In this document: piece after piece, positions 5,234 through 21,834 of the stretch
Layout: the number at the start of each line of letters is the position of its first letter
Numbering within the stretch: the stretch's first letter is position 1
DNA from: a virus
Strand: one strand, 5' to 3'
DNA: 23,225 bases
IMG/VR virus record: IMGVR_UViG_3300029914_000144
Location: 1 to 23,225 of that record
Program-made: the position numbers and the translations under genes
Notes under the pieces: model-generated
Databases searched by the model: none
What the model was told of the DNA's origin: nothing
The model's input: the letters and a program-made list of their open reading frames with translations, nothing else

Positions 5234-5854
5234 TTAACAATAGGGATCGGTTATAACAATTGTTCTATTTTGTCTTTGCATAATATTTCCACCATGCATG
5301 TCAAGATATCTATTACCTTTATATTGTCCAACAATTTTTGTTGCTTCTATTAAAGATAGATTTTTTTTTAAATAATTTATTGTAGAATATAAACAATTAA
5401 AATAGAATAGTGTTTCAAATGTTTCACGATTTGATTCTCCCCAACAATCCATAATTCTATCTAATGCAACAGCTAAATTTCGAGCATTTACAGATTCAAC
5501 TGTTTGTAATTTTTCAATAAGATAAACATAATAATTTAAAGTGCCAATTTTCATAATTTTCATATCACCAATATTAGGAAAATGAATATTTGGATGATTT
5601 TTTATAACTTCAACATAATGTTCATAACCACCATCAACCCAATCATTAATCTTTAAAACAAAATTCTTTTTTGGATTTGTATAGACAGAACTATAAGCAC
5701 CTTTATCAAGAAATGTCCAACCAAGTTTAGCAAGTTTTTTAAATAATATTTTTCTTTCATGGTCTTCGTCTTTATCTTTATCTCGGACAAATCTAGTGGC
5801 AGCACTGATAATTGGTTTCGTTATTTTTGGTTGTCGTAATTCAAATATTTTCAT
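5234..5854 (-). CDS. Kinase-like protein (paralog B)
   Basis: The 206-residue protein is closely similar to paralog A. It carries MKIFELRQPKI at the start, KGAYSSVYTNP and VLKIN (glycine-loop and Lys equivalents), NIHFPNIGDMK, YYVYLIEKL, then YLDMHGGNIMQRQ and VITDPY at the end. The Asp/Asn pair expected in the catalytic loop is kept, so it may be active. It is the first gene of the (-) pair. No Shine-Dalgarno sequence precedes the ATG; instead AATAAATA lies 8 bases upstream, which would give a leader of only about 3 bases. It is divergent from the operon starting at 5956. Function unknown beyond the fold-level guess. Confidence 0.75.
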   Translation of the reverse strand: MKIFELRQPKITKPIISAATRFVRDKDKDEDHERKILFKKLAKLGWTFLDKGAYSSVYTNPKKNFVLKINDWVDGGYEHYVEVIKNHPNIHFPNIGDMKIMKIGTLNYYVYLIEKLQTVESVNARNLAVALDRIMDCWGESNRETFETLFYFNCLYSTINYLKKNLSLIEATKIVGQYKGNRYLDMHGGNIMQRQNRTIVITDPYC

Positions 5855-6653: not shown

Positions 6654-7204
6654 TAAAACAATGTTTATGGTCGGGTGGTTTAGATTCAACATATATGATC
6701 TTTAAGTTATTAAGTGAAGGACATCATGTTGATGCTTATTATATTAAATTAACTGATAATACACAACAAACCAAACGAGAATTATCAGCAATTAATAAAT
6801 TGGTTCCATTATTATCAAAATTTGATTTTTCATATAAAGGTATATTATCTGAATTTTCAGTTAGAGAAATATGTTCAGATATTACTATGCAACAAGCACC
6901 TATTTGGTTATTATCTTCTTATTATTTGTCTGGACCAGTGAATATTGGATATGTAATGAATGATGATTCAATTAGTTATTTGAATGATTATTATTCTATT
7001 ATTAGTTCTTTAAATTTACTAAGAACTAAACCACTGATAATAGAATTTCCATTAATAAAAATTAAAAAAGAAGACATAATAAAAAATTTACCATTAATTT
7101 ATAAAAAACATATAACATATTGTTCGTCAATGAAACGCAATAATTGTGGAATATGTGCATCATGCATAAGATATAAATCACTACTTAAAGGATTATTAAA
7201 ATAA
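6650..7204 (+). CDS. QueC-like PP-loop ATPase (7-cyano-7-deazaguanine synthase family)
   Basis: QueC turns carboxydeazaguanine into preQ0 using ATP. Here SGGLDST (residues 8-14) is the PP-loop that binds ATP, and Cys158, Cys166, Cys169 and Cys172 form the C-terminal zinc site (C-x7-C-x2-C-x2-C) typical of QueC. The protein has 184 residues, shorter than bacterial QueC (about 225-230), and I do not find the conserved PGRN motif; at that place it reads QQAPIWLL. So it may be a diverged relative with another substrate. Phages use preQ0-type bases to modify their DNA against restriction, but no partner (QueD, QueE, FolE, DpdA) is in the window. It overlaps uvsY by 4 bases and the AAA+ gene by TAATG. 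Confidence 0.75.
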   Translation: MIKQCLWSGGLDSTYMIFKLLSEGHHVDAYYIKLTDNTQQTKRELSAINKLVPLLSKFDFSYKGILSEFSVREICSDITMQQAPIWLLSSYYLSGPVNIGYVMNDDSISYLNDYYSIISSLNLLRTKPLIIEFPLIKIKKEDIIKNLPLIYKKHITYCSSMKRNNCGICASCIRYKSLLKGLLK

Positions 7205-9237
7205 TGAAAAATGAAGATGATATGTTAAATGATTTACTATCCGATGAATCATCTGGAAGAGAATCTCAAAATAATAAAGAAGTAGCGGCTGCTTCACCTT
7301 TTTGGGATGACATTGATTCCAATGAAGATAACGAAAAGGCTTTTGAATTTAAACAATGGCAAGTTGGGGCCAATGATATTTTTCGTCCAGCAGGTATTAC
7401 TCGCGCTACTATTCCTCCCGGCGTATATGATTTTGATCGTGATGATAGCGGGGTTTTTGCTAAGAAAATCAAAGTTATTACAGATAATCTGATTGAATTA
7501 CCAGATAATTCAAGCGAACGAGTTCTTATAGGTATGCAAAAATTCTGGAATATGGAAGATCGTTATAGAAAGCATGGACTTTTATATAAAAGGGGAATTT
7601 TACTATGGGGTCCACCGGGATGTCATGCTAAAGGAACTGATATAGTTATGTATAATGGTTCTATTAAAAAAGTTGAAGATGTTATTGTTGGTGATCTTTT
7701 ATTAGGCCCAGATGGAAAATCTCGCACAGTTCTTGGTTTATGTAGAGGAAAAGATGAAATGTATAAAATAACTCCAACAAAAGGAGAAGCATTTGTAGTT
7801 AATGGAAATCATATTTTATCATTGACCAGATCAAGATTACGAGATAATAGATATCCTTCCATTCTTAATACAACAGTAAATGAATATATTAATTTAACCA
7901 AATGTAGCCAAAGATCATTTAAATTATATCGATCTAAGGCAAATGAATTTTCTTCATCTATTAATGTAAAAGAACCATATTTATTAGGTGTTTGGTTAGG
8001 CGACGGTAGTGCTGATCGAGCAGCAATTACTACTGCTGATATAGAAATTAAAAATTTAATTTTTTCATATGCTAAAGAAAATAATTTACATATACGCGAA
8101 GACAAACAAGGAAATAGTTTATGTTCTACTTATTTTTTCTCTGGAGATGGTGGAGCAAAAGGGTGTAATAGTTTTATAAATTTACTTAAAGAAAATAATA
8201 TATTTGAAAATAAACACATTCCAGAATCATATATGACTGCATCTATTACTAATAGATTAGAAATATTAGCTGGATTAATTGATACTGATGGGGGTAATGA
8301 AGGTTCATGGAGGCCATCATCAAAACGACTTAACAAAAATAATAAAGGTTATTTTTCTATAACTCAAAAACGAGAAATTCTTTCAAATCAAATTGTTCGT
8401 CTTGCTAGAAGCCTTGGATTTGGAGTAACAATAAAGAAAGTAACAAAAACATTAAAATCAAGAAATTTTATTGGACAATATTTTAGGATTTCTATATATG
8501 GTGATATTCAAAGAATTCCAACTAAGATATTACGTAAACAATCAAATGCTGGAAATCCAAACAAGGATCATTTAAGAACTGGAATAAAAGCAATCGAATC
8601 TCTTGGTATTGATAATTATTATGGTTTTACATTATCAGATGATCATTTATATATGACCGGTGATTTTAATGTTCATCATAATTCCGGTAAAACCGCAACT
8701 ATTTCATTGTTAAACAAATGTCTATTAGATAAGGGTGGAATCGTAGTAATGTGTGATCATCCACGAATTACATCACAGGGATTGGAAGCAATAAGACGTA
8801 TTGAACCAACTCGCAGAATTATCTGTATTATGGAAGATATTGATGAAATCATTGACAAGTATGGCGAACATGATTTATTAGCTCTATTAGATGGAGAAAA
8901 TCAAGTAGAAAATATTGTAATGTTGGCCAGCACTAACTATCCTGATAAACTTGGAGCACGTATTGTAAATCGTCCAAGTCGCTTTGATGAACGTATTTTT
9001 GTTGGTATGCCAACAACAAATGCACGTCATGCATATTTAAAGAATATTTTGGGTGATATTGATGAATTAGATAAGTGGGTCAATGACACCGAAGGTTTAA
9101 GTATTGCCCATCTTCGTGAAATGACCGCCGCAGTTCGTTGCCTTGATCAAGACTATGATTTAGTTTTGGCAAGATTAAAGAAAATGAAACAGAAAATTAA
9201 AGCTGATTCAGATTCAGAAGGAAAGGTTGGATTCTAA
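7204..9237 (+). CDS. AAA+ ATPase interrupted by an intein
   Basis: The gene encodes 677 residues, of which residues 140-493 are an intein, so the spliced ATPase has 323 residues. The first part ends in GILLWGPPG and the second begins SGKTATISLL; joined they give the perfect Walker A GPPGSGKT. Walker B is IICIMEDID, followed by a sensor-1-like MLASTNYP and an Arg-finger-like NRPSRFDERI. The N-terminal 50 residues are acidic and probably disordered. The protein belongs to the classic AAA clade, but its substrate is unknown; position between uvsY and small genes suggests DNA metabolism. Without splicing the P-loop is broken, so ATPase activity should depend on intein removal. TAATG couples it to the gene before, and the next ATG follows its stop by one base. 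Confidence 0.88.
   Translation: MKNEDDMLNDLLSDESSGRESQNNKEVAAASPFWDDIDSNEDNEKAFEFKQWQVGANDIFRPAGITRATIPPGVYDFDRDDSGVFAKKIKVITDNLIELPDNSSERVLIGMQKFWNMEDRYRKHGLLYKRGILLWGPPGCHAKGTDIVMYNGSIKKVEDVIVGDLLLGPDGKSRTVLGLCRGKDEMYKITPTKGEAFVVNGNHILSLTRSRLRDNRYPSILNTTVNEYINLTKCSQRSFKLYRSKANEFSSSINVKEPYLLGVWLGDGSADRAAITTADIEIKNLIFSYAKENNLHIREDKQGNSLCSTYFFSGDGGAKGCNSFINLLKENNIFENKHIPESYMTASITNRLEILAGLIDTDGGNEGSWRPSSKRLNKNNKGYFSITQKREILSNQIVRLARSLGFGVTIKKVTKTLKSRNFIGQYFRISIYGDIQRIPTKILRKQSNAGNPNKDHLRTGIKAIESLGIDNYYGFTLSDDHLYMTGDFNVHHNSGKTATISLLNKCLLDKGGIVVMCDHPRITSQGLEAIRRIEPTRRIICIMEDIDEIIDKYGEHDLLALLDGENQVENIVMLASTNYPDKLGARIVNRPSRFDERIFVGMPTTNARHAYLKNILGDIDELDKWVNDTEGLSIAHLREMTAAVRCLDQDYDLVLARLKKMKQKIKADSDSEGKVGF
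7621..8682 (+). mobile_element. LAGLIDADG intein inside the Walker A loop
   Basis: The 354-residue intein starts with Cys140 (TGT at 7621) and ends with His-His-Asn before Ser494, the usual splice junction residues. The N-terminal splicing domain has CHAKGTDIVMYNGSIKKVED and a block-B-like VNGNHILSL. Two LAGLIDADG motifs are present: YLLGVWLGDG (residues 259-268) and LAGLIDTDG (355-363). Both keep the catalytic Asp, so the endonuclease may be active. The C-terminal block reads YYGFTLSDDHLYMTGDFNVHHN-like and ends in the penultimate His and final Asn. The frame is intact throughout. Insertion in the P-loop, the most conserved site of the gene, fits intein biology. Confidence 0.93.
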
Positions 9238-9642: not shown

Positions 9643-9899
9643 TAAATACTAATATGAAGGAAAAGACTAAATCATTATTAGAATCATTGATTAATATGGC
9701 TCCAACCCAAGATACTTCTTTAATCATTGAATCTCGTGGAACTCATATTATAGCCAGTGCTATTCAATTTCTTAATTCTATTCAAGAAAATTATGGCGCT
9801 GAAATGGCAGAAGATTTAGAGAAGAGATTACTTAGTAGTATTCGAAATAGAAATAATGGAAAGTTTGTTCGTGGCACAAAATCCCTAATTAAAAATTAA
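9639..9899 (+). CDS. Small helical protein of unknown function
   Basis: The 86-residue protein is mostly helical: KSLLESLINMAPTQ, then an amphipathic stretch with IIASAIQFLNSI and EDLEKRLLSSIRNR, then a basic end (GKFVRGTKSLIKN). It may bind nucleic acid by its basic tail, but no family is recognised. Two starts are possible: ATG 9639, overlapping the upstream stop (ATGA), or ATG 9654, which lies at the predicted +1 of a late promoter box. It is the last gene of the + strand operon. Its TAA shares bases with the TAA of the convergent kinase-like gene (common bases 9896-9899), so there is no intergenic terminator. Confidence 0.7.
   Translation: MINTNMKEKTKSLLESLINMAPTQDTSLIIESRGTHIIASAIQFLNSIQENYGAEMAEDLEKRLLSSIRNRNNGKFVRGTKSLIKN
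9641..9648 (+). promoter_or_regulatory. NATAAATA late-promoter-like box, ATG at predicted +1
   Basis: GATAAATA is followed by five bases and then ATG 9654-9656, in frame with the gene that opens at 9639. The predicted +1 is the A of that ATG, so late transcripts could be leaderless and start at residue 6. Confidence 0.45.
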
Positions 9900-10534
9900 T
9901 AAGCATATGGATCAGTTATAACAACTGTTCCATCTTGTCTTTGCATAATATTCCCACTATGCATATCATTACAATGACCACCAATATTTCTTCCTGCGAT
10001 TCTCGCCGCTCTTACTAAAGATGGATTTTTTCTAAAATAAGCTATTACTTCTTTAGTATTTTTAATTCTTGACCAATCTTCTTCAAAAATTTTATATATT
10101 TCATTAATATTGGTGGTTGGCATATCCATAATCTGAGATATCAATTTTGCAAATATTTTATTATCCATAGATATTGGATGTAGTTTTTCAATGAGATAAA
10201 CATAATAAGTATTCATATATCCGTCTCTATCTGGAAATTTCATGCTCTTCATATCACTTATTTTAGGAAAATGTTTATTTCTATATTTTTTAATTACAGA
10301 TGCATAATCAGCAAATGCTGAATCTGGATTCAAATTAATTTTAATAACATAATTCTTTTTTGGATTTCCATATACAGCACTAAAAGCACCGGGATCAGCC
10401 AACATAGTCCATCCCAATTTTTTAAGTTTTTCAGATAAATCAGAATTCATTCTGTTGGGAGTTTTGTAATAACCGGCAACAGCAGTTGTTAGAGGATTTC
10501 CAATTTTCGGTTTGTATAATTCATTAAGTAACAT
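9896..10534 (-). CDS. Kinase-like protein (paralog C)
   Basis: The 212-residue protein belongs to the same family as the genes at 4599, 5234 and 10544. In order it shows MLLNELYKPKIGNP, a glycine-loop-like GAFSAVYGNP, VIKIN, KHFPKISDMK, YYVYLIEKL, then CNDMHSGNIMQRQ and VITDPYAY. The Asp and Asn of the catalytic loop and the Asp of ITDP are kept. GGAG precedes the ATG by 8 bases. It is the last gene of the long - strand run and ends by overlapping the convergent gene at 9899. Its last 52 bases are identical to those of paralog D. Substrate unknown. Confidence 0.75.
   Translation of the reverse strand: MLLNELYKPKIGNPLTTAVAGYYKTPNRMNSDLSEKLKKLGWTMLADPGAFSAVYGNPKKNYVIKINLNPDSAFADYASVIKKYRNKHFPKISDMKSMKFPDRDGYMNTYYVYLIEKLHPISMDNKIFAKLISQIMDMPTTNINEIYKIFEEDWSRIKNTKEVIAYFRKNPSLVRAARIAGRNIGGHCNDMHSGNIMQRQDGTVVITDPYAY
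9897..9948 (-). repeat. 52-bp identical tract in paralogs C and D, copy 1
   Basis: Identical to 10545-10596. It covers the end of paralog C, coding for the final MQRQDGTVVITDPYAY and most of the stop region. The neighbouring sequence of the two genes is much more different, so this looks like recent gene conversion or selection on the C-terminus. Confidence 0.95.
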
Positions 10535-10543: not shown

Positions 10544-11155
10544 CTAATAAGCATATGGATCAGTTATAACAACTGTTCCATCTTGTCTTTGCATAAAATT
10601 TTCACTGTGTAAATCTAAACTATGACTTTTTACCCCATAAGCAACTATTTTTAATGCTTTAATCAATTCTGGGTTTTTTCTTAAAAGCAATGGAATACCA
10701 GTTGATCCCAATAATTTAGCAAACCCGATAGATAAATCAGTATTATCTAATTTATAATCTAAATTTATCAAATGAAAAACCCAATCAAATATTTCTTCAT
10801 ACTTACCTGCACGTTGCCGTGGAATTTTAATTAGCTTCTCAATTAAATAAATATTATAATATCTATTTCCAATTTTCAATTGCTTCTCATCACTTATCTT
10901 TGGAAAATGTATATTCGGAATTTTATGAATTATCTTACTATATGTTTCAAAAGCTCTATCTCTTGTAGTGTTAATTTTTAGAACATATGATTTATTTTTA
11001 TTTGCATATATTACATTGAATGATCCTTGACCAATTGGTTTCCATCCAAGTTTCGCAAGGCCAACATCTAAGTCACCGGCTACAGAAAACTCATTTTTTA
11101 CTGTAGAAATTACTTTATCATTAATCTTGGGTTTATATAATTCATTAAGATTCAT
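10544..11155 (-). CDS. Kinase-like protein (paralog D)
   Basis: The 203-residue protein is the most diverged of the four. It starts MNLNELYKPKI, with GQGSFNVIYANKNKSYVLKIN as glycine loop and Lys, IHFPKISDEK, YYNIYLIEKL, then SLDLHSENFMQRQ and VITDPYAY. The residue after SLDLHS is Glu where the others have Gly, but the Asp/Asn pair is kept. ATG 11155 is chosen over 11173 because GGAGG precedes it, it overlaps the gp15 stop as TAATG, and paralog C starts with the same residues. So it should be translated together with gp15. It ends in TAG, the only amber stop I found among the genes here, and paralog C begins 9 bases further on in the same frame. Confidence 0.75.
   Translation of the reverse strand: MNLNELYKPKINDKVISTVKNEFSVAGDLDVGLAKLGWKPIGQGSFNVIYANKNKSYVLKINTTRDRAFETYSKIIHKIPNIHFPKISDEKQLKIGNRYYNIYLIEKLIKIPRQRAGKYEEIFDWVFHLINLDYKLDNTDLSIGFAKLLGSTGIPLLLRKNPELIKALKIVAYGVKSHSLDLHSENFMQRQDGTVVITDPYAY
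10545..10596 (-). repeat. 52-bp identical tract in paralogs C and D, copy 2
   Basis: Partner of 9897-9948; covers the 3' end of paralog D. Identity ends abruptly at both sides. Confidence 0.95.
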
Positions 11156-12576
11156 TATAAAATTAACCTCCAAGATGAACTATCATAAGGTCCGTTCCAT
11201 CCGCGTATCCAAATATTTCCATTCCATTGATATTGCAAATTTGTGGTGTCATCAAAAACAAACTGAATATTTCCAGTATTACTTGATGCTGAAAAGGTCG
11301 TAACCCATGAATTTCCAGTGTAAGTAATAATATCATTAGTATTTGCAGATGCATTACTATTTCCTGTATCATATGGCCACTCAGAACCAATCGGAGAAGT
11401 AATTAAATAACTATCTCCAATATTTGCATTGGATAATCCATAACCCGGAGCAACATTTTCTGGATTCACAACGGTAATAATCGATGGAAGAGTATTAACA
11501 GGTAATGTTGCAATATTTGCATTATATAGAAGAATGGTTGAATCAGTTGGATCAATTGTAATTGTTCCTAATATTTCGTCATCACTATTGTTATATGATA
11601 ATCCAATCATTGAAACACCGGGTCTCATTGCTCCATATGCATCTAAAACCCCAGTCCAATCCAAAGGATTTCCATAGAAAAATGGTTGTGGAGATACATT
11701 TGCAAGATTCGATGAACTAATAGAATCACTTGCGTTCCAAAAAGCATCTGGCCCATCTGGATGAGTAACATTTGAGTTAGCTACTTGTGGAAGAACTTGT
11801 ATTTGTCCATTGTTTACAAATAAACCATAATTATTAAATGTAACCACTTGTCGAGTTCCAATCACAAGATCATTTAAATCAGTAGTTTCATTAATATTCA
11901 TAATTACTTTGAAAATTACGCCCATTTTACTAACTTGTGCAGGAAGTGACATCCATATTGGAGCTTCAAAAGACAAAGAACATACATCATACGAGCTATC
12001 ATTACCTTGTCCAACTGGAATTGTTCTATTTGACCATGTTACATCTTGTAATTCAAGATAACTTAAACTTTCCCAATCTAAAAAATTATCATTTCGCTGT
12101 ATTTCTAAAGCAGGATTAAATAATGGTAATATTTGTTCCAGTATTTGCATTTTTTGTTGAGTATTTGAAGTTACGATATCTACTGCAATTGACAATTGGT
12201 ATGGAACTGGCATAAAACGCTTAATATTGTATGCATTTGCTTGTTGGGGTAAAAATGCCCCAACGTTTGCATCCCACTGTCTTGTTCTAACTGATAAAGT
12301 ATCTTCAAATGTTGGAGCTTGAGTTCTAGGTCTATCAAATTTTAGATTTTTAATATAAACACTGATCATTGGAAAAGAAGGCATAACATTTTCACTATTC
12401 AAACGAGCTATTGTTGCGGCAGAAAAAGTTCCATCTCCCCATATAACAGGAACAGTAGAATATAATTGATTACCATTAGAATCTAATGAATACGCAACGG
12501 TAAATTCGCTAAAGAGACGAATAATTTGAAGAAGCCATTTGCGTATATTTTGGTCGTAAAAATAATTTTGACTCAT
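11155..12576 (-). CDS. 15: Tail sheath stabiliser/completion protein (T4 gp15-like) with C-terminal extension
   Basis: T4 gp15 caps the tail tube and sheath and joins the tail to the head. The N-terminal part (about residues 1-225) matches its pattern: YFYDQNIRKWLLQIIRLFSEF, then VPVIWGD, YQLSIAVDIVTSNTQQKMQILEQILPLFNP (121-154 region) and a strand-rich end with SLSFEAPIW. T4 gp15 has 272 residues; this one has 473, with about 200 extra. The extra part ends in a beta-rich module (about 383-473) with NIGDSYLIT, NDIITYTGNSW and repeated WNG motifs, like exposed surface domains on phage virions. The gene follows gp17, as T4-like phages keep these genes close. A GATAAATA box lies 5 bases before the ATG and there is no Shine-Dalgarno sequence. 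Confidence 0.75.
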   Translation of the reverse strand: MSQNYFYDQNIRKWLLQIIRLFSEFTVAYSLDSNGNQLYSTVPVIWGDGTFSAATIARLNSENVMPSFPMISVYIKNLKFDRPRTQAPTFEDTLSVRTRQWDANVGAFLPQQANAYNIKRFMPVPYQLSIAVDIVTSNTQQKMQILEQILPLFNPALEIQRNDNFLDWESLSYLELQDVTWSNRTIPVGQGNDSSYDVCSLSFEAPIWMSLPAQVSKMGVIFKVIMNINETTDLNDLVIGTRQVVTFNNYGLFVNNGQIQVLPQVANSNVTHPDGPDAFWNASDSISSSNLANVSPQPFFYGNPLDWTGVLDAYGAMRPGVSMIGLSYNNSDDEILGTITIDPTDSTILLYNANIATLPVNTLPSIITVVNPENVAPGYGLSNANIGDSYLITSPIGSEWPYDTGNSNASANTNDIITYTGNSWVTTFSASSNTGNIQFVFDDTTNLQYQWNGNIWIRGWNGPYDSSSWRLIL

Positions 12577-12595: not shown

Positions 12596-14182
12596 TTAGT
12601 AATATCTATTTGAAGAAGTGCTCATTATAAACGGCAAAGGCATTGCATTTTCACCAATATCTCGTATATCCTGTAATTCGGGAATATAATCTTTTAATGT
12701 TTCCATCATTCGTATGATTACTAGCATTGAACATACTAAATCATCCGTGCTTCCAATTTTTGCTTGATAAGTATTACCTATACTTACAAATGTTTTTAAT
12801 TCACTAATTAATTTCTTGCTATATAAAAATATTTTCTTGGATTCGATTAAACTTTTTAACTTAGCACAAGCAGTTAATTTACTAGTATTTGTTGTGTTAA
12901 ATCCTTTTCTAAACTTTTTACTTTGTCCCAGTTTTACTGGTTCGCTTAGAAAAACACCGGGAATGTTTTCTTCTCCAATATTTCTAATGGTAACTAAAGT
13001 TGCTTCTCCAACTGTATTTGATTCGATAGACCAGTAAACATTAGTTGTTTGTTCAGTAATAGATACTAAGTATGTAGTAATTTCCTTTAATAAATCAACT
13101 TGTTTTTCAATACTAGTTTTATTATTACACCATTCTGCAATTTGTGTATTTGTATTTGCTTCTAATACTTGTATAGCTGCTAGATTTCCTCCAGTTCCAA
13201 TACTTGGATCAAGAGCAACAAGATAAATATTCCCTTTTTTGGGTTTTTTATACCAACGAATTTGGCCTTGTAATTCTATTGGTTCTATGCCTGATAATTG
13301 ATTCAAAACAAATGGATTGATTAAGGTCTCAGAATCAATAATAAACTCACAATTATGTTCCCTTAAAAATTTTTCTTCACCTATATCAGATTTTTCTACA
13401 TCAGCCCATTTTTGATCTCTTTCTGGATGTTCACTCCATATTGCTTTAAATGCTTTAAAACCATTAACTCCTAAACCATCAGATAAAGTATTACCGAATT
13501 CATCTTCTGTTTTATTAGCATTATGCCAAATTTCTGAAAATTGATCCTCATCACTCTGTGGTGTTGAAGATATGATAATTTTTCCTCCTGTAGATAAAGT
13601 AGGAGAAATAGAAGCCCAAAACTCTTTTTGAATGTTTTGCGGAACTGATGCTAATTCGTCAACAAAAAATAATCCAACCGAATAACCACGACCAGTTGTT
13701 GGGGTTGTAGTTTGTGCAATAATTCTTGATCCATTATCAAATGAAATAGATTGTTTATTATATTCAACGGTTCCTGCACGTAAAAAATCTGGCATGAATT
13801 CATATGCATATTTTATACGAGCCATAATTTCAGACACAAAACGCCCAGTGTGAGCGGCAATTAATATTGTCATATCTGGAACAAAAGTTGCATACCATAA
13901 AACGTAACCACCAACAGTTGTAGTTTTTCCTAATTGTCTTCCGCATAAAAGCACACTTTTTCGATTATTCTGAATTATATCTAACATTCTTTCTTGATAA
14001 TCATATGCTTTATATAAGGTTTTTCCTTTTATCGGATGTCTAGTATAATAATAATTATTAATAAAATATTGACAACCAGATATAGGGTCTGCGCATTTAG
14101 CAAACTCTTCAAGGTCATGCTTAGTATATTTTGTTTTTTGATGTGGCTTTTTAATTAATGAGTAATCAGTGGAAATGTTCAT
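12596..14182 (-). CDS. 17: Terminase large subunit (T4 gp17-like)
   Basis: Gp17 is the motor ATPase and nuclease that cuts concatemeric DNA and packs it into proheads. The 528-residue protein shows Walker A GRQLGKTT (81-88), Walker B LFFVDE (171-176) with the catalytic Glu, and a coupling motif IIISSTP (202-208). The RNase H-like nuclease follows: ALDPS with Asp325, SIESN with Glu387, and STDD with Asp480/481, the expected metal-binding triad. T4 gp17 has 610 residues; the N-terminal region is shorter here. Upstream lies a probable homing endonuclease gene separated by only 13 bases, and those 13 bases are exactly a TATAAATA box plus five bases. No Shine-Dalgarno sequence is seen, so late mRNA may be leaderless. 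Confidence 0.93.
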   Translation of the reverse strand: MNISTDYSLIKKPHQKTKYTKHDLEEFAKCADPISGCQYFINNYYYTRHPIKGKTLYKAYDYQERMLDIIQNNRKSVLLCGRQLGKTTTVGGYVLWYATFVPDMTILIAAHTGRFVSEIMARIKYAYEFMPDFLRAGTVEYNKQSISFDNGSRIIAQTTTPTTGRGYSVGLFFVDELASVPQNIQKEFWASISPTLSTGGKIIISSTPQSDEDQFSEIWHNANKTEDEFGNTLSDGLGVNGFKAFKAIWSEHPERDQKWADVEKSDIGEEKFLREHNCEFIIDSETLINPFVLNQLSGIEPIELQGQIRWYKKPKKGNIYLVALDPSIGTGGNLAAIQVLEANTNTQIAEWCNNKTSIEKQVDLLKEITTYLVSITEQTTNVYWSIESNTVGEATLVTIRNIGEENIPGVFLSEPVKLGQSKKFRKGFNTTNTSKLTACAKLKSLIESKKIFLYSKKLISELKTFVSIGNTYQAKIGSTDDLVCSMLVIIRMMETLKDYIPELQDIRDIGENAMPLPFIMSTSSNRYY

Positions 14183-14187
14183 ATTAC

Positions 14188-14195
14188 TATTTATA
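14188..14195 (-). promoter_or_regulatory. Exact T4 late promoter TATAAATA before gp17, ATG at predicted +1
   Basis: TATAAATA on the - strand, five bases, then ATG at 14182. It fills the whole gap between the endonuclease stop (14196) and gp17. The predicted +1 is the A of the ATG. Confidence 0.75.
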
Positions 14196-15113
14196 TTAAT
14201 AATTTATAAAATCAAGTAATTTTTGATTTACCTTTTTTAAATCCTTATAACATATTTCTAAATAAGGAATATTATTATTTTTAGCGAACGTTCTTTTAAT
14301 TTGATCATGTTTTTTAACAATGTTAAATCTTTTTATTCCACCAAAACATTCTCTTGGAATATAATGTTGTTCTCCTTGATATTCTATTAATCCAAGCAGA
14401 TTATCATTTTTATAAATACCAAAATCAAATGGCAGCGGTTTTTTATTTTTGCAATTTTTAAATCTAACTTGATTTTTATACTCAATATTATTTTCTATTA
14501 AAAATAGTCGGATAGCTTCTTCCCCTTTACTACTTTTACAAATGGGGCAACCATTTCTACCTTGAATATGATTCATAGGAAGTTGCCAAAATGATCCATG
14601 TTCTAGACATATAATTTCAATATTTTTATCTGCTCTAATATAGATAGCCTTACTAAAATCAAAAATAGGACCATGAATTTTTATTGATTCTTCTATAAAT
14701 TTTTCAATTGTTTTTGTTCTACTTGTTGCAGATTTATTTAAACTACATGGTGGACATTCCCTTCCGTGCCAGTGTTTTTCAGGAGTTTGCCAAAAAGAGC
14801 CATGTATAGGACAAACAATTTCAACTTTGGTTTTGGAATCAATATATTTAACTTTAGTATAATCATATATTGAATTAAGATTTAGAAATCTTAGATTAAC
14901 TTCTGATACTGTTAATAAATCTGATCCGCCGCATTTATGACATTTCTTTCCAAATAAATGAGCACGAGCTATTTGCCAAAATGATCCATGAATTGGGCAA
15001 ATTATTTCTAACTCAGTTCTAGAATCAATATATACTGATTTTGAATAATCAAAAATATTTCCATGCTTTAATTTAGCACGTTGAATAAAAATTTCTGTTG
15101 TAAGTAATGGCAT
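14196..15113 (-). CDS. Zinc-ribbon repeat protein with PDDEXK-like nuclease end, probable homing endonuclease
   Basis: The 305-residue protein has three modules of about 60 residues, each with YxKxxYIDxxTxxEIICPIHGSFWQ and a CxxC pair, the same type of repeat as in the gene at 2427. The C-terminal part has LPFDFGIYKNDNLLGLIEYQGEQHY, in which Asp, Glu and Gln are spaced like a PDDEXK/Vsr-type nuclease core, then KKHDQIKRTFAKNNNIPYLEI, typical of such nucleases. The call is therefore a free-standing homing endonuclease that probably cuts near the terminase gene of related phages. It sits directly before gp17. AATAAATA lies one base before the ATG, too close to serve as its own promoter. No clear Shine-Dalgarno sequence is present. 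Confidence 0.75.
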   Translation of the reverse strand: MPLLTTEIFIQRAKLKHGNIFDYSKSVYIDSRTELEIICPIHGSFWQIARAHLFGKKCHKCGGSDLLTVSEVNLRFLNLNSIYDYTKVKYIDSKTKVEIVCPIHGSFWQTPEKHWHGRECPPCSLNKSATSRTKTIEKFIEESIKIHGPIFDFSKAIYIRADKNIEIICLEHGSFWQLPMNHIQGRNGCPICKSSKGEEAIRLFLIENNIEYKNQVRFKNCKNKKPLPFDFGIYKNDNLLGLIEYQGEQHYIPRECFGGIKRFNIVKKHDQIKRTFAKNNNIPYLEICYKDLKKVNQKLLDFINY

Positions 15114-15149
15114 ATATTTATTATATCATAATAATTAAAAATTCACCAA

Positions 15150-15803
15150 TTATTTCGGATGCTTTCCAGAATTATGATTTGTTGGAGATTTTTTATGAAT
15201 ATCTGTTCCTTCTGTGCTTCTAGAATTACTCAATCTCTTACCGGGAAATCCACATATTTTAGCAGCCATTGAAATAATATCATCATCTTCCTGTGTGTAT
15301 GCACTAGAAAATGGCATATCTTGTGAAAACGAAGAAGCATTTATTTTTGGAGGATTTGGTAAACTTGCCGCCATTACCATTGCTCGATAATGAAAATATG
15401 GAGTTCCTCCATCATACCATCTTGCATTTGGTAAAGCATCGGCATGATCGGAATTTAATTTTCCTCCATCTTGACCATCATTGGGATCAACAACCATCAT
15501 ATCTTCCTTGGATTCTTCCAAAGAAAATCTTCGTGCTCGTAACTTAGAAATTACTCTTGATTCTCTAATAACCGGATTACTTTCTCCATACATTTCTATG
15601 GCTTCCTGTTTTGCCCATTCATCTAGCATATGATATACTTGCCATCCCAGTGTATCAACAAACATCGGAGCTACAAAATTACATGCTTCTATTCGTGTCA
15701 TCTTGCTATCATCCATAACACGTTTAACTAAAGAACGAATTGTTTCTTTTCCAATTTCGTTACCTGTAGTTTTTTCTATAAATTTATGGTTAATATAAAA
15801 CAT
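15150..15803 (-). CDS. Conserved-looking late protein of unknown function
   Basis: The 217-residue protein begins with a helical domain (KETIRSLVKRVMDDSKMTRIEACNFVAPMFVDTLGWQVYHMLDEWAKQEAIEMYG, residues about 20-74), then a basic helix (RVISKLRARRFSLEES) and a low-complexity region rich in Asp, Asn, Gly and Ser. It ends in a stretch with RLSNSRSTEGTDIHKKSPTNH. I recognise no family with certainty. It starts by TAATG overlap with the gene before it, so it belongs to the same late operon as the head-targeted proteins. LEE-S in FSLEESK resembles a prohead-protease site, so it too may enter the head. AAGGA lies 10 bases before the ATG. Confidence 0.75.
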   Translation of the reverse strand: MFYINHKFIEKTTGNEIGKETIRSLVKRVMDDSKMTRIEACNFVAPMFVDTLGWQVYHMLDEWAKQEAIEMYGESNPVIRESRVISKLRARRFSLEESKEDMMVVDPNDGQDGGKLNSDHADALPNARWYDGGTPYFHYRAMVMAASLPNPPKINASSFSQDMPFSSAYTQEDDDIISMAAKICGFPGKRLSNSRSTEGTDIHKKSPTNHNSGKHPK

Positions 15804-16183
15804 TAAACATATCCTTGTTTGTTAGAAAGTCCACCAATTGGAGTTAGTTCAAGATTATGAGTATGTAGATACTTTTTAATCTGATCTGCCAATGGAACAT
15901 CAGTGTGAACATCTTGAGAATCAATGAAAGAAACTAAACCATCAATGGGATCATCTGAAGTTACTTCGGCTTCTGGTTCAGAGTCAACATCTGTAAAATT
16001 ATTATCATCTTCATTATCCAATGGTTGCTTATCATCAGCTTCCCAATCTTCAGAATCATAATCAGTCATCATATCTTCATCATCTGGTCTATCATCACTC
16101 GGTAACCAATTACCAGATGGTAGATCAGCTTCACTAATAATTCTAGAATATTCTCTAAGTAACTCTCCCTCTGACTTTTTCAT
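15803..16183 (-). CDS. Acidic protein with capsid-targeting-like N-terminus, candidate internal head protein
   Basis: The 126-residue protein starts MKKSEGELLREYSRIISE-ADLPSG. In T4, internal head proteins begin with a short helix ending in a gp21 protease site ((L/I)xE before A/G/S); ISE-A here fits. The next gene upstream starts with a matching LLxEYxxII helix. The rest is extremely acidic (many Asp and Glu between residues 30 and 90) with a helical end. I chose ATG 16183 because GGAG lies 6 bases before it and because of the N-terminal match; ATG 16228, which overlaps the upstream stop as TAATG, would add 15 residues. Strong acidity suits a DNA-free prohead core or ion-binding role, but this is inference. 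Confidence 0.7.
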   Translation of the reverse strand: MKKSEGELLREYSRIISEADLPSGNWLPSDDRPDDEDMMTDYDSEDWEADDKQPLDNEDDNNFTDVDSEPEAEVTSDDPIDGLVSFIDSQDVHTDVPLADQIKKYLHTHNLELTPIGGLSNKQGYV

Positions 16184-16227
16184 TTTATTCTCCGTTATAT
16201 TTTCTTGTTCCTTTTGTTTATTAGTCA

Positions 16228-16611
16228 TTAAAATACTGTCCCATTAAATTTAAATAATCTTTGATTATCATGGTGTCGATCTAAAGCATATTTAATACAC
16301 ATTTGAATTTGTTCTGGTGTTGCTTTATTATTCTTTGAAATTCTTTTTTGAACAGCATTTGTTATTTTTTCATCGGATGTTAAAATATCCATATTTCCAA
16401 CAAAAAGATCAATAGCAATCTCTGGAACATATGCTGGATAATTATCTCCATCCACATATGATTCATTAATATTATATGGTTTACATAAGTCACATTTACA
16501 TTGGCATTTTTCAGGAACACTCATACTGCATATATTTCCATTACAATGTCGAGCGGACCCTTCAATAATTGTTCGATATTCTTGTAATAATTCAACTGAT
16601 GTTTTATCCAT
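16228..16611 (-). CDS. Cys-rich protein with capsid-targeting-like N-terminus
   Basis: The 127-residue protein begins MDKTSVELLQEYRTIIE-GSARHC. IIE-G at residues 15-18 fits the T4 prohead-protease site, and the leading helix resembles the neighbouring gene's. Residues 23-43 hold six Cys (C23, C28, C36, C38, C40, C43), a likely metal site. A second candidate cut, INE-S, falls at 48-51, so cutting at both would free a Cys-rich peptide of about 33 residues. The C-terminal half is helical with basic patches (NAVQKRISKNNKATPEQIQMCIKYALDRHH). AGAGGAAC precedes the ATG. It lies in the same operon as the large modular protein upstream. Function unknown. Confidence 0.75.
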   Translation of the reverse strand: MDKTSVELLQEYRTIIEGSARHCNGNICSMSVPEKCQCKCDLCKPYNINESYVDGDNYPAYVPEIAIDLFVGNMDILTSDEKITNAVQKRISKNNKATPEQIQMCIKYALDRHHDNQRLFKFNGTVF

Positions 16612-16621
16612 AATGTTCCTC

Positions 16622-19600
16622 TTATTTTACAAATGGTGCATGTGCATCTTTAATGCCTTGCATATAACCATCATGAAAATCGCGTTTCCAAGTTCCAACT
16701 GGTTTATTTTTTGCTTCACCAAAAACATCGGTATAAGACCTTACGCCATTAATATAATCTTTCTGTGCATCTCTATAACCCATTTGATATCCTCTACTTT
16801 TTGGTTTAGGTAATGCTTTATTATCATCTGCCCAATTACTCATTGAATTTCTTTTGGCATCCTCTTCTTGTTCTTGGCGAGTTAGAGCGTCACCGTCATC
16901 AATATCACTCCAATCCTCGGCTGCTATAGCTTCATTCATACCAGCACATTTCTTGCAATATCCATTACCACCTTTTACTGGCGGGCATTGCCCACAATCA
17001 GCACATTTCTTTTTAGATGCTGGCTTCTTTACATCAGCTTCATAAATTCCTTTTCCGATATCTTTTACCTTACCAACGGCGGCAGAATCACCGCCTTCAG
17101 TTTTTGGAGTATCTTTCTGTTCCTTTGATTTAGGTTCTGTTTCTTTTCCTTCCTCTTTTGGTTCAGTTTTTTCTTTAGCTTTAAATGGATTGTTATTTTT
17201 TGGAGCATTTTTCTTCTGGCTATCTTTCTTTTGTTCTTCTTTATCTTTCTTTGGTTCATCTTTCTTATCTTCTTCTTTTCCATTCTTTTTATCAAGAGTG
17301 GCTTTCATGGCAGCGATTTTCTCTTCAAATCGTTCCATTGATTGAGTAATCTTTGTTTTTGCAGATGGAGGAGCACCAAGTTTCTTAACTTTCTTTTCAA
17401 GGTTATCTAACATTCCTTGAAGTTTGTTAGTTTGTGACTTGGATAAAGATTCTTTTACTGTTCCTTCACCAACCATTGTATGAGTCTTATTCATTTCCCA
17501 TTTTTCAACTCCTAGACCTGTGCGAACTAAAACAATGCCATTTTCAATCTTAATGATCTTTCCAACTTCACCATTGGTGGCATTATATACACGCGCATTT
17601 GGTCTAAATCTATCTGACTTAGAACTCATTGAATTTGTTGCATCGGGATCAATAACAAATTTTCCGTTATTATAAATTGATTCATTCTTTACTGGTTTAT
17701 GCTTAGGGCAATAATCTTCCTTTGTTCTCCAAAGACATTTCTTTATCTTACAAAACTCTTCTGGATTAGCTTCTTTTGCTTTTGCTACTTTGGCTGCAAC
17801 ATTTGAAGATTCTTCAACTTTTTCCATTTTAAATTGAGATTTTGCTTCTTTATAATCATCAACTGCATTTTCATAATCTTCTGTTGCAGCGTCACGTTCT
17901 TTGATTGAAGATTTTGGATTTGCAAAAACTCTATCCATCTCTGCTTCGGCTTCATCCATTGCTTCTTTTGCTACACTCATAAAAGATTCATTAACTTTCT
18001 TACTCTTTTTCTTGGCTTCTAATTTCTCTTTTTGATAACACGCTTCGCATTGGTTAATATCACTACCATTTGGAATGCGTTTTTCGCAAGAAATGCAGTA
18101 ATCTTCATTCAAAGAAGAAGAAGAAAACTTCTTTTGTAACTTCTCAGCAAGAGTATTAACGGTGCTATCTTCATGAAGTTTTTCTTCTTTCTTATTGGCA
18201 GCAACAGTTAGAATATTATCACTACCCTTAACAGGATTGAACATATCTTTTGGATTGTTTGGACCATCGGCATCTTGAACTAATGCTCTCCAACCAGCAA
18301 TTTGTTCATTGGGTTCATTGGACCAAGTTTTTGGTGCGCCGTTCAATCCTTCTTTGCGACGATCAGGTGTTAATGATTCATTCATATTAGTTTCCTCTAA
18401 TGTATTTACTGGCACAACCTTAACATTCGTATAATATTGTGGCATTTCTTTTAATTGCCCCGCTTCTTTTTTTGCCTCTGGCAAATCTGAAAAATTAGTA
18501 GCTTCGTCTTTATTTACAGCATACCTTTCTTTTATATTATCTACTTTCAAATATTGTGTAACGCCGCGCAAAACAAATTCTACATAATAACTCGAAGATT
18601 CGTTTATCTTTTTCTCTTGCTCTTGTAAAGACATAGATTCTTCTATATTATCCCATGCTGGATAATCATCTTCTTCGTCAGGTGTCGTATCCATTGAACC
18701 ATTTTCCCATTCATCTTCGCAACTTCCACTATGATATAGGCCGCAAATATCACACCAATGGCCTTCTTTATCTTCATCACTATTATGCAGTTCAGGAGGA
18801 TTTTCATCGAAAGTATCATCAATCATATCACCAAATTCAGAATCTTTTGAAACTTGATTATTCCAATCTTCATCGGAACCTTCGAATTCTGGAATTACTG
18901 ATTCATCAACATCAAAATTTTCTGGATTATCATGAGTATATTTGTAACAATCAGCGCAAAGTTTTTCTCTATCGGCGTTTTCATTAACACCAACTTCTCT
19001 CGGCGCTCCACAATTATCACAACTTACTGTATCTAAATCATAAATATATCCTTCTCCAACAACAGTCGAAACAGGAGACAATTCAGGTGTAGGATTAGTT
19101 GCAGATTTATCAGGCATTAATCCACTCAATTTTAGAATATCCATAAGATCGTCAGCTTTCTGATTCTTAGCAGTAACAGTTAAACTTTTTTCATCTGTTT
19201 CACTGTTATAAGACGAATCTATTGATACTTTATCTCTAACTACTGGGTTACAATCCGATCCACTTGTTGGATCACATTCTTGAATTCTTTTCACTGACTC
19301 ACCTACCTTTTTCTTATTACGAAGATGTTCTACATAATTATCAATTGCTGTCATACTTGGTTCTCTGGTTTCTGCTCTACCAATTCCTTTTGGGTGATTA
19401 CGTAATTTACCTTTTGTTTTGCAAGTGCATGGACTATGACCACATCCAATACACTTTCCTTCTAATTTTCGTTTTGCCAATTTACGTGTAACGGTATCAA
19501 CCCTATTAGATTCTTCTAACTTATCTATTTCTTTTATATAACCTTTTTTTAACATATCTTGAACTTTATATCCATCTAATGCAGTATTATGTTTAACTGA

Positions 19601-20929
19601 TCCATCATGAAGAATAATATCAGCGCCTTGGCCTAAATTATTTAAATTTATAGCAACATATTTAACATTGTTTTCAAAAGGCTCATCGTCTGCCCTAATA
19701 TATCTCTTTATTAAGGATTCTTCTAACTTATCAACCATTTGTCTTTCCACTGGTAACTCTTTAACTTCGGCACCATAAGTAGGATCAAAAGCTAATTTTA
19801 ATTCTTTTTCTCTAATCTGTCTTTTTAAATTATTAATCTCTTTTATTTTAGATGGTTTTTTATCTAACAATGCTTCAAGTTTAACTATAGCAGCTTGACA
19901 CCACTTAATTTCGCTTTCTGCTCGTTTTTGAGCTTCTTCAGCATTGCGTTTCTTCTCTTCTCTATCAACATAAGCATGGACAAATTTAGATAAATTATCA
20001 CGAAATTCATCACCGATATAATAATCTGTTGAATCAGTTGATTCAGTATAATCAGTTCTATATCCTTTAGATTTTGCAATTCTTTCTGAATGTGGAAATA
20101 TAGCTATATTTCCATCTTGTTTGAGACATTTTTTACCCGGCGTTGCTCCACATCTAGGACATTTCTTTTTTAAACTACCAATTGAATTTCCAGTTACAAA
20201 TCTATTATGTTTTATAAATCCAGATTGTTTATATGATTCTTCAATACCTTTTTGTTCAAGTTCTTGATCTATATTTAACTCATGATCATTAACATCTTCA
20301 ACCCCTGTTTTTTCACCGGCAATATCTTTCTTGAAATCATTAAAATATTCTTCCTCTGGAAAATCCATTTCATCTTTAGACCATAAGTGATCTGCGGATT
20401 CATCTATCCAAGAATCTTTATATTCTTTAAATTGTTTTTGAAGTAGATCATAGCAGTCTTGACAAAATGGACCATATCCTTCGCTTGTATAAAGAGAATC
20501 ATCAAATTTTCCTGCGCGACCAGTTGGTTCCTTACATCTTTCGCAATATTCAACGGGAATATTTGGATCATTTTGATCATAAACTTTATGAGGAATAGTA
20601 TCTTCGCCTAACATTGCTTCACTCGCTTTTTTAAGATTGAACATCATAATCAATTGCTCCAAACTATTTTGTGCTAATAACGTATCTTTTCTCTTTATTA
20701 AAGTTATAACATCCTTAATAGTTCCTTTAATACTTTCATCAGATAGATCATATGCTTCTTCAAGATTAAAAATCGCATCATCTAAACTATATCTAAGAAA
20801 TTCCTTTGCCTTGTTCAAATATTCTAACACTGTCAATTTAACATCAATTGGTTCTTCACTTACTGGTGTTCCAGACATGTTGTTATTTTTCATCGAATTA
20901 AATATTGAAAGAATACGACCCATGTCCAT
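16622..20929 (-). CDS. 1435-residue multi-zinc-module protein with many prohead-protease-like sites (candidate head polyprotein)
   Basis: No family is recognised for the whole. It is a string of small modules. Eight Cys/His sites: C129/C132/C156/C159; C257/C260/C268/H280 (CPRCGATPG type); C493/C496/C501/C503; C637/C640/C658/C661; C726/C729/H733/C737; C945/C948/C961/C964; C1060/C1065/C1074/H1077; C1309/C1312/C1315/C1325/C1328. Between them lie coiled coils (about 320-380 and 985-1035), beta domains (422-468, 784-841), a KOW-like barrel (1107-1146), a Lys/Glu-rich linker (1213-1280) and a C-terminal GYRDAQKDYINGV domain. About 16 sites of form (V/I/L/M)xE before S/A/G separate them, e.g. LEE-S 402, LEE-S 471, VDE-S 674, INE-S 775, MNE-S 849, VNE-S 979, VEE-S 1038, VKE-S 1158, IYE-A 1295, MNE-A 1331. 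AAGGA precedes the ATG. The polyprotein reading is inference. Confidence 0.8.
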   Translation of the reverse strand: MDMGRILSIFNSMKNNNMSGTPVSEEPIDVKLTVLEYLNKAKEFLRYSLDDAIFNLEEAYDLSDESIKGTIKDVITLIKRKDTLLAQNSLEQLIMMFNLKKASEAMLGEDTIPHKVYDQNDPNIPVEYCERCKEPTGRAGKFDDSLYTSEGYGPFCQDCYDLLQKQFKEYKDSWIDESADHLWSKDEMDFPEEEYFNDFKKDIAGEKTGVEDVNDHELNIDQELEQKGIEESYKQSGFIKHNRFVTGNSIGSLKKKCPRCGATPGKKCLKQDGNIAIFPHSERIAKSKGYRTDYTESTDSTDYYIGDEFRDNLSKFVHAYVDREEKKRNAEEAQKRAESEIKWCQAAIVKLEALLDKKPSKIKEINNLKRQIREKELKLAFDPTYGAEVKELPVERQMVDKLEESLIKRYIRADDEPFENNVKYVAINLNNLGQGADIILHDGSVKHNTALDGYKVQDMLKKGYIKEIDKLEESNRVDTVTRKLAKRKLEGKCIGCGHSPCTCKTKGKLRNHPKGIGRAETREPSMTAIDNYVEHLRNKKKVGESVKRIQECDPTSGSDCNPVVRDKVSIDSSYNSETDEKSLTVTAKNQKADDLMDILKLSGLMPDKSATNPTPELSPVSTVVGEGYIYDLDTVSCDNCGAPREVGVNENADREKLCADCYKYTHDNPENFDVDESVIPEFEGSDEDWNNQVSKDSEFGDMIDDTFDENPPELHNSDEDKEGHWCDICGLYHSGSCEDEWENGSMDTTPDEEDDYPAWDNIEESMSLQEQEKKINESSSYYVEFVLRGVTQYLKVDNIKERYAVNKDEATNFSDLPEAKKEAGQLKEMPQYYTNVKVVPVNTLEETNMNESLTPDRRKEGLNGAPKTWSNEPNEQIAGWRALVQDADGPNNPKDMFNPVKGSDNILTVAANKKEEKLHEDSTVNTLAEKLQKKFSSSSLNEDYCISCEKRIPNGSDINQCEACYQKEKLEAKKKSKKVNESFMSVAKEAMDEAEAEMDRVFANPKSSIKERDAATEDYENAVDDYKEAKSQFKMEKVEESSNVAAKVAKAKEANPEEFCKIKKCLWRTKEDYCPKHKPVKNESIYNNGKFVIDPDATNSMSSKSDRFRPNARVYNATNGEVGKIIKIENGIVLVRTGLGVEKWEMNKTHTMVGEGTVKESLSKSQTNKLQGMLDNLEKKVKKLGAPPSAKTKITQSMERFEEKIAAMKATLDKKNGKEEDKKDEPKKDKEEQKKDSQKKNAPKNNNPFKAKEKTEPKEEGKETEPKSKEQKDTPKTEGGDSAAVGKVKDIGKGIYEADVKKPASKKKCADCGQCPPVKGGNGYCKKCAGMNEAIAAEDWSDIDDGDALTRQEQEEDAKRNSMSNWADDNKALPKPKSRGYQMGYRDAQKDYINGVRSYTDVFGEAKNKPVGTWKRDFHDGYMQGIKDAHAPFVK
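17090..17293 (-). other. Lys/Glu-rich low-complexity linker in the modular protein
   Basis: Residues 1213-1280 are almost only Lys, Glu, Asp, Pro, Asn and Gln, and are certainly disordered. Such charged linkers join domains or bind DNA loosely. Confidence 0.85.
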
Positions 20930-21186: not shown

Positions 21187-21834
21187 TTAACGAGCAAAGC
21201 TCTTAATTACTGGTTTTTTCACAGGAGATGATCCCATAGCACTTTCTTTTCCAATCTTAAATTCTGGATCATTCAAAGTCTTGCCTTTAATTTTCTTAAA
21301 TTCTTTTGGAATAAGTTGATCGGTTGATCCAATACTATTCTTCACAAGTTTTTCATTGTAAGTATCTCCAAAATTTTCACCACTAATTTCTTCATTGTTC
21401 TGTGGGTCATAATTAGAATCTAATAAAGCAGATTTTCCTGTATTCTTAGCAACAGAATCATTCTCTTTATTCATACTGTCAAAATGACTTGGTTGACCAT
21501 CTGGAAAATACATACTATCTGGCTCACCAGTTAAAACACAAACAGTTTCAAAAGCAAAACCAACGGATGCAATTGTATGCCTTAACATATTTTGGGAACT
21601 TGGATATGCAGTTTCCGCTTCAAAAGTATAAGTCTCTGGTGAATTCATTCCCGGAAAATCTTTATCCACTCGTTGAATTGGGAGACTCTTTGGTTGAGTT
21701 ATAGACACAAGATTATACTTCTGCAATGCATTTTCAATTGCAGTCATCATTTCGTTGTCTGGTTTAAAACTCAATTTTACTATAAATTTATAGTTTCTTA
21801 CACTTTCCGCTAGAAATTCACTAAATTTTTTCAT
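21187..21834 (-). CDS. Protein with T4-type capsid-targeting peptide, candidate internal or core head protein
   Basis: The 215-residue protein begins MKKFSEFLAE-SVRNYKF. T4 internal proteins begin MKTYQEFIAE-A and are cut after that Glu by gp21 inside the prohead; pattern and length are the same here, with the cut after Glu10. The next 110 residues look like an alpha/beta domain (YKFIVKLSFKPDNEMMTAIENALQKYNL, then LPIQRVDKDFPG and ETYTFEAETAYPSSQNMLRHTIA, a ferredoxin-like pattern), which I recall from hypothetical proteins of T4-like phages. The C-terminal 85 residues are polar and probably disordered. AGAGGA lies before the ATG, and a CATAAATA box lies 16 bases upstream. Position next to gp16 and gp4 fits a head role; the exact job is unknown. 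Confidence 0.75.
   Translation of the reverse strand: MKKFSEFLAESVRNYKFIVKLSFKPDNEMMTAIENALQKYNLVSITQPKSLPIQRVDKDFPGMNSPETYTFEAETAYPSSQNMLRHTIASVGFAFETVCVLTGEPDSMYFPDGQPSHFDSMNKENDSVAKNTGKSALLDSNYDPQNNEEISGENFGDTYNEKLVKNSIGSTDQLIPKEFKKIKGKTLNDPEFKIGKESAMGSSPVKKPVIKSFAR

Follow-up and report, generated by a model that had tools for sequence, protein, structure and literature searches.

A candidate head polyprotein with eight zinc-type modules and many prohead-protease-type sites, encoded beside the terminase gene of a T4-like jumbo phage

The window described here is the whole stretch of 23,225 nucleotides at positions 1 to 23,225 of IMG/VR virus record IMGVR_UViG_3300029914_000144. The gene in question lies at 16622-20929, coordinates which an initial annotation made from the letters alone had given correctly; it is on the minus strand. 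It is an intact open reading frame (ORF) with an ATG start and codes for a protein of 1435 residues. The gene for the terminase large subunit (TerL) serves as anchor of the locus.

16622 to 20929, minus: candidate head polyprotein, 1435 residues (ORF, motif enrichment, positional family)
12596 to 14182, minus: TerL, locus anchor (profile and sequence matches)

The TerL of the window is about 50% identical to that of the Pseudomonas jumbo phage PA5oct, 47% identical to those of Sinorhizobium phage Phosso and Agrobacterium phage Atu_ph07, and about 41% identical to those of the GAP32/CBB/121Q group, and from these identities the contig is taken to be a fragment of a T4-like jumbo phage. A direct search for relatives with the whole 1435-residue protein gave one near-identical contig and no cultured phage. 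We consider it likely, from comparison of sequences, that the gene codes for an internal head protein of such a phage and that this protein is cut by the prohead protease.

The initial annotation had named 16 places in the protein where V, I, L or M stands at P3, two residues before a Glu which is followed by Ser, Ala or Gly. All 16 are present. The numbers it gave were those of the P3 residue, and the scissile bonds, two residues later, follow residues 177, 231, 404, 473, 544, 626, 676, 764, 777, 851, 981, 1040, 1155, 1160, 1297 and 1333. A plain regular expression, [LIVM]xE/[SAG] (the slash marks the bond), gives 19 sites in total, the three extra ones all before Ala (58, 818, 993); the Ala-type sites 58 and 993 are probably uncut because they lie inside confidently predicted helices. 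The 19 sites compare with 4.9 expected, and the 12 sites of the Ser form with a computed 1.8, close to the approximately 2 estimated beforehand. The maxima in 50,000 residue shuffles were 17 for all sites and 10 for the Ser form; 3,000 dipeptide-preserving shuffles had means of 7.6 and 2.9 and maxima of 17 and 9. This comparison with shuffled sequences had been named in advance as a possible refutation, and the claim survived it. A joint test of hydrophobic P3 with small P1' around Glu, which is independent of composition, points the same way: V, I, L or M occupies P3 in 12 of the 16 Glu-Ser bonds and at 25 of the 135 other Glu residues (odds ratio 13, p 9e-6). No signal was obtained when the hydrophobic position was shifted by one or when Asp or Lys replaced Glu.

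The 16 bonds divide the protein into the following segments, listed from the N-terminus together with the modules which they contain.

20399 to 20929, minus: segment 1, residues 1-177, zinc module 1, ends SWIDE/S
20453 to 20545, minus: zinc module 1, CxxC...CxxC, residues 129-159 (sequence pattern)
20237 to 20398, minus: segment 2, residues 178-231, acidic, ends GIEE/S
19718 to 20236, minus: segment 3, residues 232-404, zinc module 2 (PF24623) and coiled coil, ends KLEE/S
20063 to 20161, minus: zinc module 2, residues 257-289, Phage_zn_bind_8 (Pfam)
19511 to 19717, minus: segment 4, residues 405-473, ends KLEE/S
19298 to 19510, minus: segment 5, residues 474-544, zinc module 3, basic (isoelectric point 10), ends KVGE/S
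19421 to 19453, minus: zinc module 3, CxxCx4CxC, residues 493-503 (sequence pattern)
19052 to 19297, minus: segment 6, residues 545-626, module found in at least 6 relatives (best E 3e-6), ends VVGE/G
19118 to 19150, minus: LAG motif DLMDILKLSGL, residues 594-604, of the type at scaffold C-termini
18902 to 19051, minus: segment 7, residues 627-676, zinc module 4, ends DVDE/S
18947 to 19021, minus: zinc module 4, residues 637-661 (sequence pattern)
18638 to 18901, minus: segment 8, residues 677-764, very acidic, zinc module 5, ends NIEE/S
18719 to 18754, minus: zinc module 5, CxxC..H..C, residues 726-737 (sequence pattern)
18599 to 18637, minus: segment 9, residues 765-777, a 13-residue peptide, ends KINE/S
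18377 to 18598, minus: segment 10, residues 778-851, possible small beta domain (sequence reading only), ends NMNE/S
17987 to 18376, minus: segment 11, residues 852-981, zinc module 6, ends KVNE/S
18038 to 18097, minus: zinc module 6, residues 945-964, differs in sister contig L001, which is otherwise identical
17810 to 17986, minus: segment 12, residues 982-1040, helical hairpin beginning at the cut, ends KVEE/S
17465 to 17809, minus: segment 13, residues 1041-1155, ends MVGE/G
17699 to 17752, minus: zinc module 7, within segment 13
17489 to 17605, minus: SH3-like beta domain, within segment 13 (AlphaFold)
17450 to 17464, minus: segment 14, residues 1156-1160, ends TVKE/S
17039 to 17449, minus: segment 15, residues 1161-1297, helical hairpin and Lys/Glu-rich tail, ends GIYE/A
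16931 to 17038, minus: segment 16, residues 1298-1333, a 3.7 kDa peptide, ends GMNE/A
16946 to 17005, minus: zinc module 8, within segment 16
16625 to 16930, minus: segment 17, residues 1334-1435, C-terminal piece

Segment 1 starts with a helix (residues 1-13) resembling the N-termini of the relatives' proteins, and a helical bundle is confidently predicted at residues ~30-100. All eight Cys/His modules described beforehand are found, as clusters resembling zinc ribbons or knuckles, and 12 CxxC pairs are observed compared to 0.8 expected. Zinc module 2 (matched over residues 256-286) passes the Pfam model PF24623 (Phage_zn_bind_8, putative phage zinc finger) with E 5.5e-6 and 26.5 bits, the cut-off being 24. 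In its Cys/His clusters the protein resembles zinc-binding proteins, and the modules may bind zinc. For the other modules searches of Pfam, PHROGs and NCBIfam gave weak matches only, e.g., in relatives, to an AT-hook, a double zinc ribbon and an FmdE zinc finger. AlphaFold, run without relatives on the two halves (mean predicted local distance difference test 40 and 47), gave long helices and hairpins and one small SH3-like beta domain; the three small beta domains claimed beforehand were not confirmed. The half-models were dropped as input to fold searches, the confidence being too low.

The protease which would cut these sites belongs to MEROPS family S77, the T4 gp21 type. It had been expected elsewhere in the genome; it is found on the contigs of relatives but not on the 23-kb contig. 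Genes for an S77 prohead protease and a gp23-type capsid protein occur in each of the five named relatives. Three contigs of uncultured relatives which carry a family member (L056, L066, L070) also have the S77 protease, a scaffold and the major capsid protein, and a fourth, the 524-kb contig of L099, has the protease, a scaffold-like gene and the capsid protein. On these four contigs the scaffold-like gene between the S77 and capsid genes has 11-15 sites where 2.2-2.6 are expected, 2.3-2.6 on the three with a family member, and the capsid proteins start LLE/[SG]RWxETKxALLE/GL. The same scan applied to T4 gave 10 sites in gp22 (2.6 expected) and 5 in gp21 (1.0 expected) and included the LTE/AEIGG site of gp23, whereas the portal protein gp20 and the tail tube protein gp19, used as negative controls, had no excess. 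In T4, gp22 is fragmented after L/I-x-E and gp20 is not processed (PMC9026906, PMC5694885). The scaffold and capsid proteins of the S77-encoding relatives therefore carry the same motif as the window protein, the scan recovers the T4 gp21 substrates, and the proposed [LIVM]xE motif is right for this group of phages.

Two side observations concern PA5oct and the contig of L099. In PA5oct a second gene, gp212 (L033 31150-31821; NC_071039 180349-181020), is annotated as a head maturation protease and flagged by mass spectrometry; it is not detected by the S77 model, and the S77 gene of PA5oct is gp331. On the 524-kb contig of L099 the capsid gene is followed by four repeat-rich paralogous genes (L127, ~13816-17736) with units AIFGYG...TNLVSNTGVV.

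A second short motif connects the long proteins with the scaffolds. The pattern [LIVM]xx[LIVM][AS]G[LIVMYF], of the LxxLAGL type and here called LAG, occurs 44 times in the long proteins of this family compared to 1.9 expected. In PA5oct, Phosso, Atu_ph07, Vibrio phage 2.275 and four uncultured phages the scaffold has it at its very end (e.g., ...VIDIKRLAGLK), and the scaffolds of 121Q and RaK2 have LSGI close to the end. LAG is also the C-terminus of 38 proteins of a second family encoded after TerL. Among 1829 proteins 49 end with LAG compared to 0.7 expected, a few scaffold records being counted twice. The motif was not found in T4 gp22. The window protein has one internal copy, DLMDILKLSGL, and the placement of LAG just before protease sites is not above chance. 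We infer that LAG is probably a docking tag for the prohead core.

The long gene appears to belong to a fast-changing family of such polyproteins in giant T4-like phages. By alignment of terminases 80 further loci were collected. The gene order in many of them is a small nuclease-like gene, a gene like PA5oct gp283, a gene for 150-220 residues bearing a capsid targeting sequence (CTS), the long site-rich gene, a few small genes, TerL, a second site-rich gene and then SSB/RecA. The long gene codes for a modular protein of 169-1219 residues in 32 relatives, compared to 1435 residues in the window. These 33 positional members together have 215 sites (83 expected), compared to 623 (503 expected) in the other genes of the same contigs. 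For the divergent long proteins, with the window left out, the joint test gives an odds ratio of 3.0 (p 6e-21), for P3 only. The value for TerL, used as a control, is raised because TerL sequences are homologous, and we therefore relied on the divergent polyproteins and the other genes instead.

Modules are common to several members while their order changes. Residues 545-626 of the window protein are related to modules in L054, L043, L044, L064, L063 and L075 (E 3e-6 to 5e-3). In L036 a 19-residue Cys-rich knuckle is repeated in tandem with sites flanking each copy (...FPVQE/GETCHTCHQNPCDCNEMEE/GAG...), and a separate gene of L037 contains a module with 95% identity to the C-terminal one of the L063 protein. 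In the sister contig L001 the last 450 residues are identical save for one zinc module (residues ~936-977), and identity returns at KKVNE/S. Over fourteen pair comparisons the site Glu is kept in 57 of 71 cases and other Glu in 321 of 544 (odds ratio 2.8, p 3e-4, an optimistic value because the pairs overlap). The second site-rich family (PA5oct gp278, CBB gp276) has 590 sites in 90 members compared to 222 expected; one domain-border site is kept in 34 of 43 members, with E/S retained while the linker varies. As a separate observation, residues 465-535 of the polyprotein at L045:6138-8486 match hypothetical proteins of mycobacteriophages (36% identity, E 5e-5), which hints at module exchange across distant phages.

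The location in the head is suggested by the neighbouring genes and by PA5oct. The neighbours concerned, and the member of the second family in the window, are the following.

21187 to 21834, minus: putative small head protein, N-terminus MKKFSEFLAE/S, conserved gene upstream of the polyprotein gene (family alignment, weak PHROG match to internal head protein)
16228 to 16611, minus: 127-residue neighbour, MDKTSVELLQEYRTIIE/G, also INE/S
15803 to 16228, minus: 141-residue neighbour, ELLREYSRIISE/A
15150 to 15803, minus: 217-residue neighbour; residues 112-208, after IRE/S and LEE/S, are a module of a CTS-bearing family (E 5e-22)
2 to 1261, plus: second-family member, C-terminal part with ITE/S and VTE/A, truncated by the contig start

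The claim that neighbours carry capsid-targeting-like N-termini holds: most members of the upstream family start MKxFxxYLxE/S, which resembles the T4 CTS. An alignment search with this small family found no sufficiently conserved stretch. The CTS-bearing family matched by the 217-residue neighbour consists of proteins of ~120 residues encoded upstream of TerL. Many of the relatives' polyproteins have the N-terminus xYDILGxLxGL...VYE/S; the window protein starts with a similar helix, MDMGRILSIFNSM, with no close protease site following. The PA5oct proteins at corresponding positions (gp281, gp282, gp278) are annotated as detected by electrospray tandem mass spectrometry (ESI-MS/MS) and are called structural. 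PA5oct gp281, of 498 residues, has five sites (VKE/S, VEE/S, VSE/A, MDE/G and LHE/A) compared to 1.8 expected and has a domain in common with the L005 member (E 1e-6); the bonds predicted in gp278 are VSE/S, IIE/S, IKE/S and IEE/A. A CTS-like N-terminal site is present in 11 of the 89 MS-flagged PA5oct proteins and in 10 of the 315 others (p 0.002).

Elsewhere in the window an AAA+ ATPase gene (7204-9237, plus) has an intein-like insert which splits the P-loop (GPPG-C...HN-SGKT) and contains homing-endonuclease-like stretches. Four related small kinase-like proteins (4599-5240, 5234-5854, 9896-10534 and 10544-11173, all minus) with alike starts (FELRQPKI / LNELYKPKI) and ends (VITDPY) represent a local gene expansion; that at 9896-10534 matches a T7-type kinase PHROG (E 2e-13), and its match to Kinase-PolyVal is weak. 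Repeated CPIHG...CPxCG units are found at 2397-3521 (plus), next to the RecA gene, and at 14196-15113 (minus), next to TerL, both probably homing-endonuclease-like. A scan of the window for the T4 late promoter TATAAATA gave 3 matches, which is below chance.

The model we propose is as follows. The polyprotein would be made alongside the head proteins and enter the prohead core, probably by means of the N-terminal capsid-targeting-like helix and the short LAG motif. The S77 protease would cut after [V/I/L/M]-x-Glu before Ser, Ala or Gly at up to 16 linkers and release ~17 pieces of 0.5-20 kDa, eight of which would carry zinc-type modules. Many of the folded pieces may stay with the packaged DNA like the T4 internal proteins and enter the host with it. 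Sequence comparison gives good support to the reading as a head polyprotein which the prohead protease cuts, and the cutting in the window phage itself is inferred. The proposal of head packing and of cutting into zinc-module peptides is thus supported in part, by comparison, in its head origin and its prohead-protease sites. Given cutting, we would put the retention of the pieces and their ejection into the host at about an even chance, perhaps slightly better. The zinc-type modules, together with the DNA-binding-like modules of relatives (weak AT-hook matches), argue that the pieces have a role once cut; the T4 core proteins with many cuts, however, mostly leave the head, so that disposal is a serious alternative. 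More tentatively, and somewhat short of probable, this could be a hypervariable head polyprotein resembling those of animal viruses, whose zinc-module peptides are freed in the capsid, enter the host as a set and act there on its targets, while modules are gained, lost or exchanged between sites.

Several points weigh against the model. The S77 protease gene was not found on the 23-kb contig, an absence which tells nothing in a fragment of this size, and the ORFs showed neither a scaffold nor a capsid gene. Several relatives (L041, L078, L082, L101) have no site excess. Pairwise similarity between the window protein and PA5oct gp281 was not found, so that the link is by position, neighbours and motif. 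All MS-flagged PA5oct proteins pooled have 109 sites compared to 91 expected, an excess which is weak because the flag covers tail and metabolic proteins as well as those of the head. Confidence in the structure model is low, and the shuffle and pair counts take partly related sequences as independent.

A quite possible alternative is that the protein is a core protein made for disposal like T4 gp22, gp67 and gp68, the pieces leaving the shell and the modules being idle after assembly. The T4 core proteins are cut into many fragments and mostly removed (PMC9026906), and the propeptides of SPN3US receive several cuts each, presumably so that they can be cleared (PMC10052503, PMC5694885). The polyprotein and the scaffold have both the site motif and the LAG motif in common, and the polyprotein varies from 169 to 1435 residues and is mostly acidic. 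The relatives have, however, a separate scaffold beside the protease, eight zinc-type modules are unexpected in throw-away filler, and the pieces of 4-20 kDa overlap the retained T4 internal proteins in size. In PA5oct virions the counterpart carries the MS flag, but in T4 some of the gp22 fragments stay behind as well.

It is unlikely that we are dealing with a mostly uncut virion protein in which the sites are linker wording left over when modules were exchanged, or are cut at one or two places only. Such a protein would have company, since in SPN3US 14 sites in nine proteins are proven and most head proteins are uncut (PMC10052503), and two Ala-type sites of the window protein lie within predicted helices; yet the site Glu is more conserved than other Glu, and the border site of the second family retains E/S despite a variable linker. 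Very improbable is an injected protein of the polyvalent type, with several domains in one chain and its own processing enzyme: many domains in one phage protein would fit, and packaging and processing have been described for polyvalent proteins (PMC5512222), but no polyvalent domain (zincin metallopeptidase, ArdC-N, ART) was found by Pfam, PHROGs or NCBIfam, and the processing sites point to a prohead protease acting in trans. That the motif excess is an artefact of a repetitive sequence rich in Glu, Ser and hydrophobic residues has a negligible probability: the protein is rich in charged residues and dipeptide shuffles lift the expectation to 7.6, but no shuffle of either kind reaches 19 and 12, which ruled out composition, the joint test, which composition does not affect, loses its signal when positions are shifted and with Asp or Lys, and the known T4 substrates behave in the same way.

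Many proteins brought into the cell by jumbo phages have an unexplained function. A row of modules in one gene, freed by a protease, would explain both the loading and the quick diversification of small internal proteins, and such a family would make internal head proteins predictable from sequence. Taken together, LAG, the site pattern and the CTS-like N-termini give a working rule by which head-core proteins of this phage group can be annotated, and the long-open question of whether prohead-protease fragments are waste or delivered products becomes testable.

A zinc-module polyprotein divided by prohead-protease sites was not found described in the open-access literature searched, which is not proof of absence. 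The polyvalent proteins of Iyer et al. (2017) resemble the window protein in having many domains in one phage protein and in being thought to be packaged and processed (PMC5512222); they carry enzymes, often a metallopeptidase of their own, of which the window protein showed none. The ejection and inner-body proteins of phiKZ, 201phi2-1 and SPN3US likewise belong to the heads of jumbo phages and have several protease sites with Glu at P1, and 19 cut proteins are known in each of phiKZ and 201phi2-1 (PMC10052503); their protease is of the S80 type, the motif is AxE or SxE, and the proven cuts in SPN3US remove propeptides. T4 gp22, gp67 and gp68, cut by gp21, have in common with the window protein the hydrophobic-x-Glu before a small residue, many sites per chain and the location in the head. 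T4 gp22 is, however, a mostly removed coiled-coil scaffold, and the scaffold family has its place between the protease and capsid genes; the window gene lies instead beside TerL and codes for a separate, modular protein of zinc type. The T4 internal proteins IPI-III and Alt are similar in that the window protein is also a probable internal head protein, in the MKxFxxYLxE/S of the neighbour family, which resembles the T4 CTS, and in the overlapping fragment sizes; the T4 internal proteins are single proteins cut once near the N-terminus, whereas the window protein consists of many modules with the sites between them.

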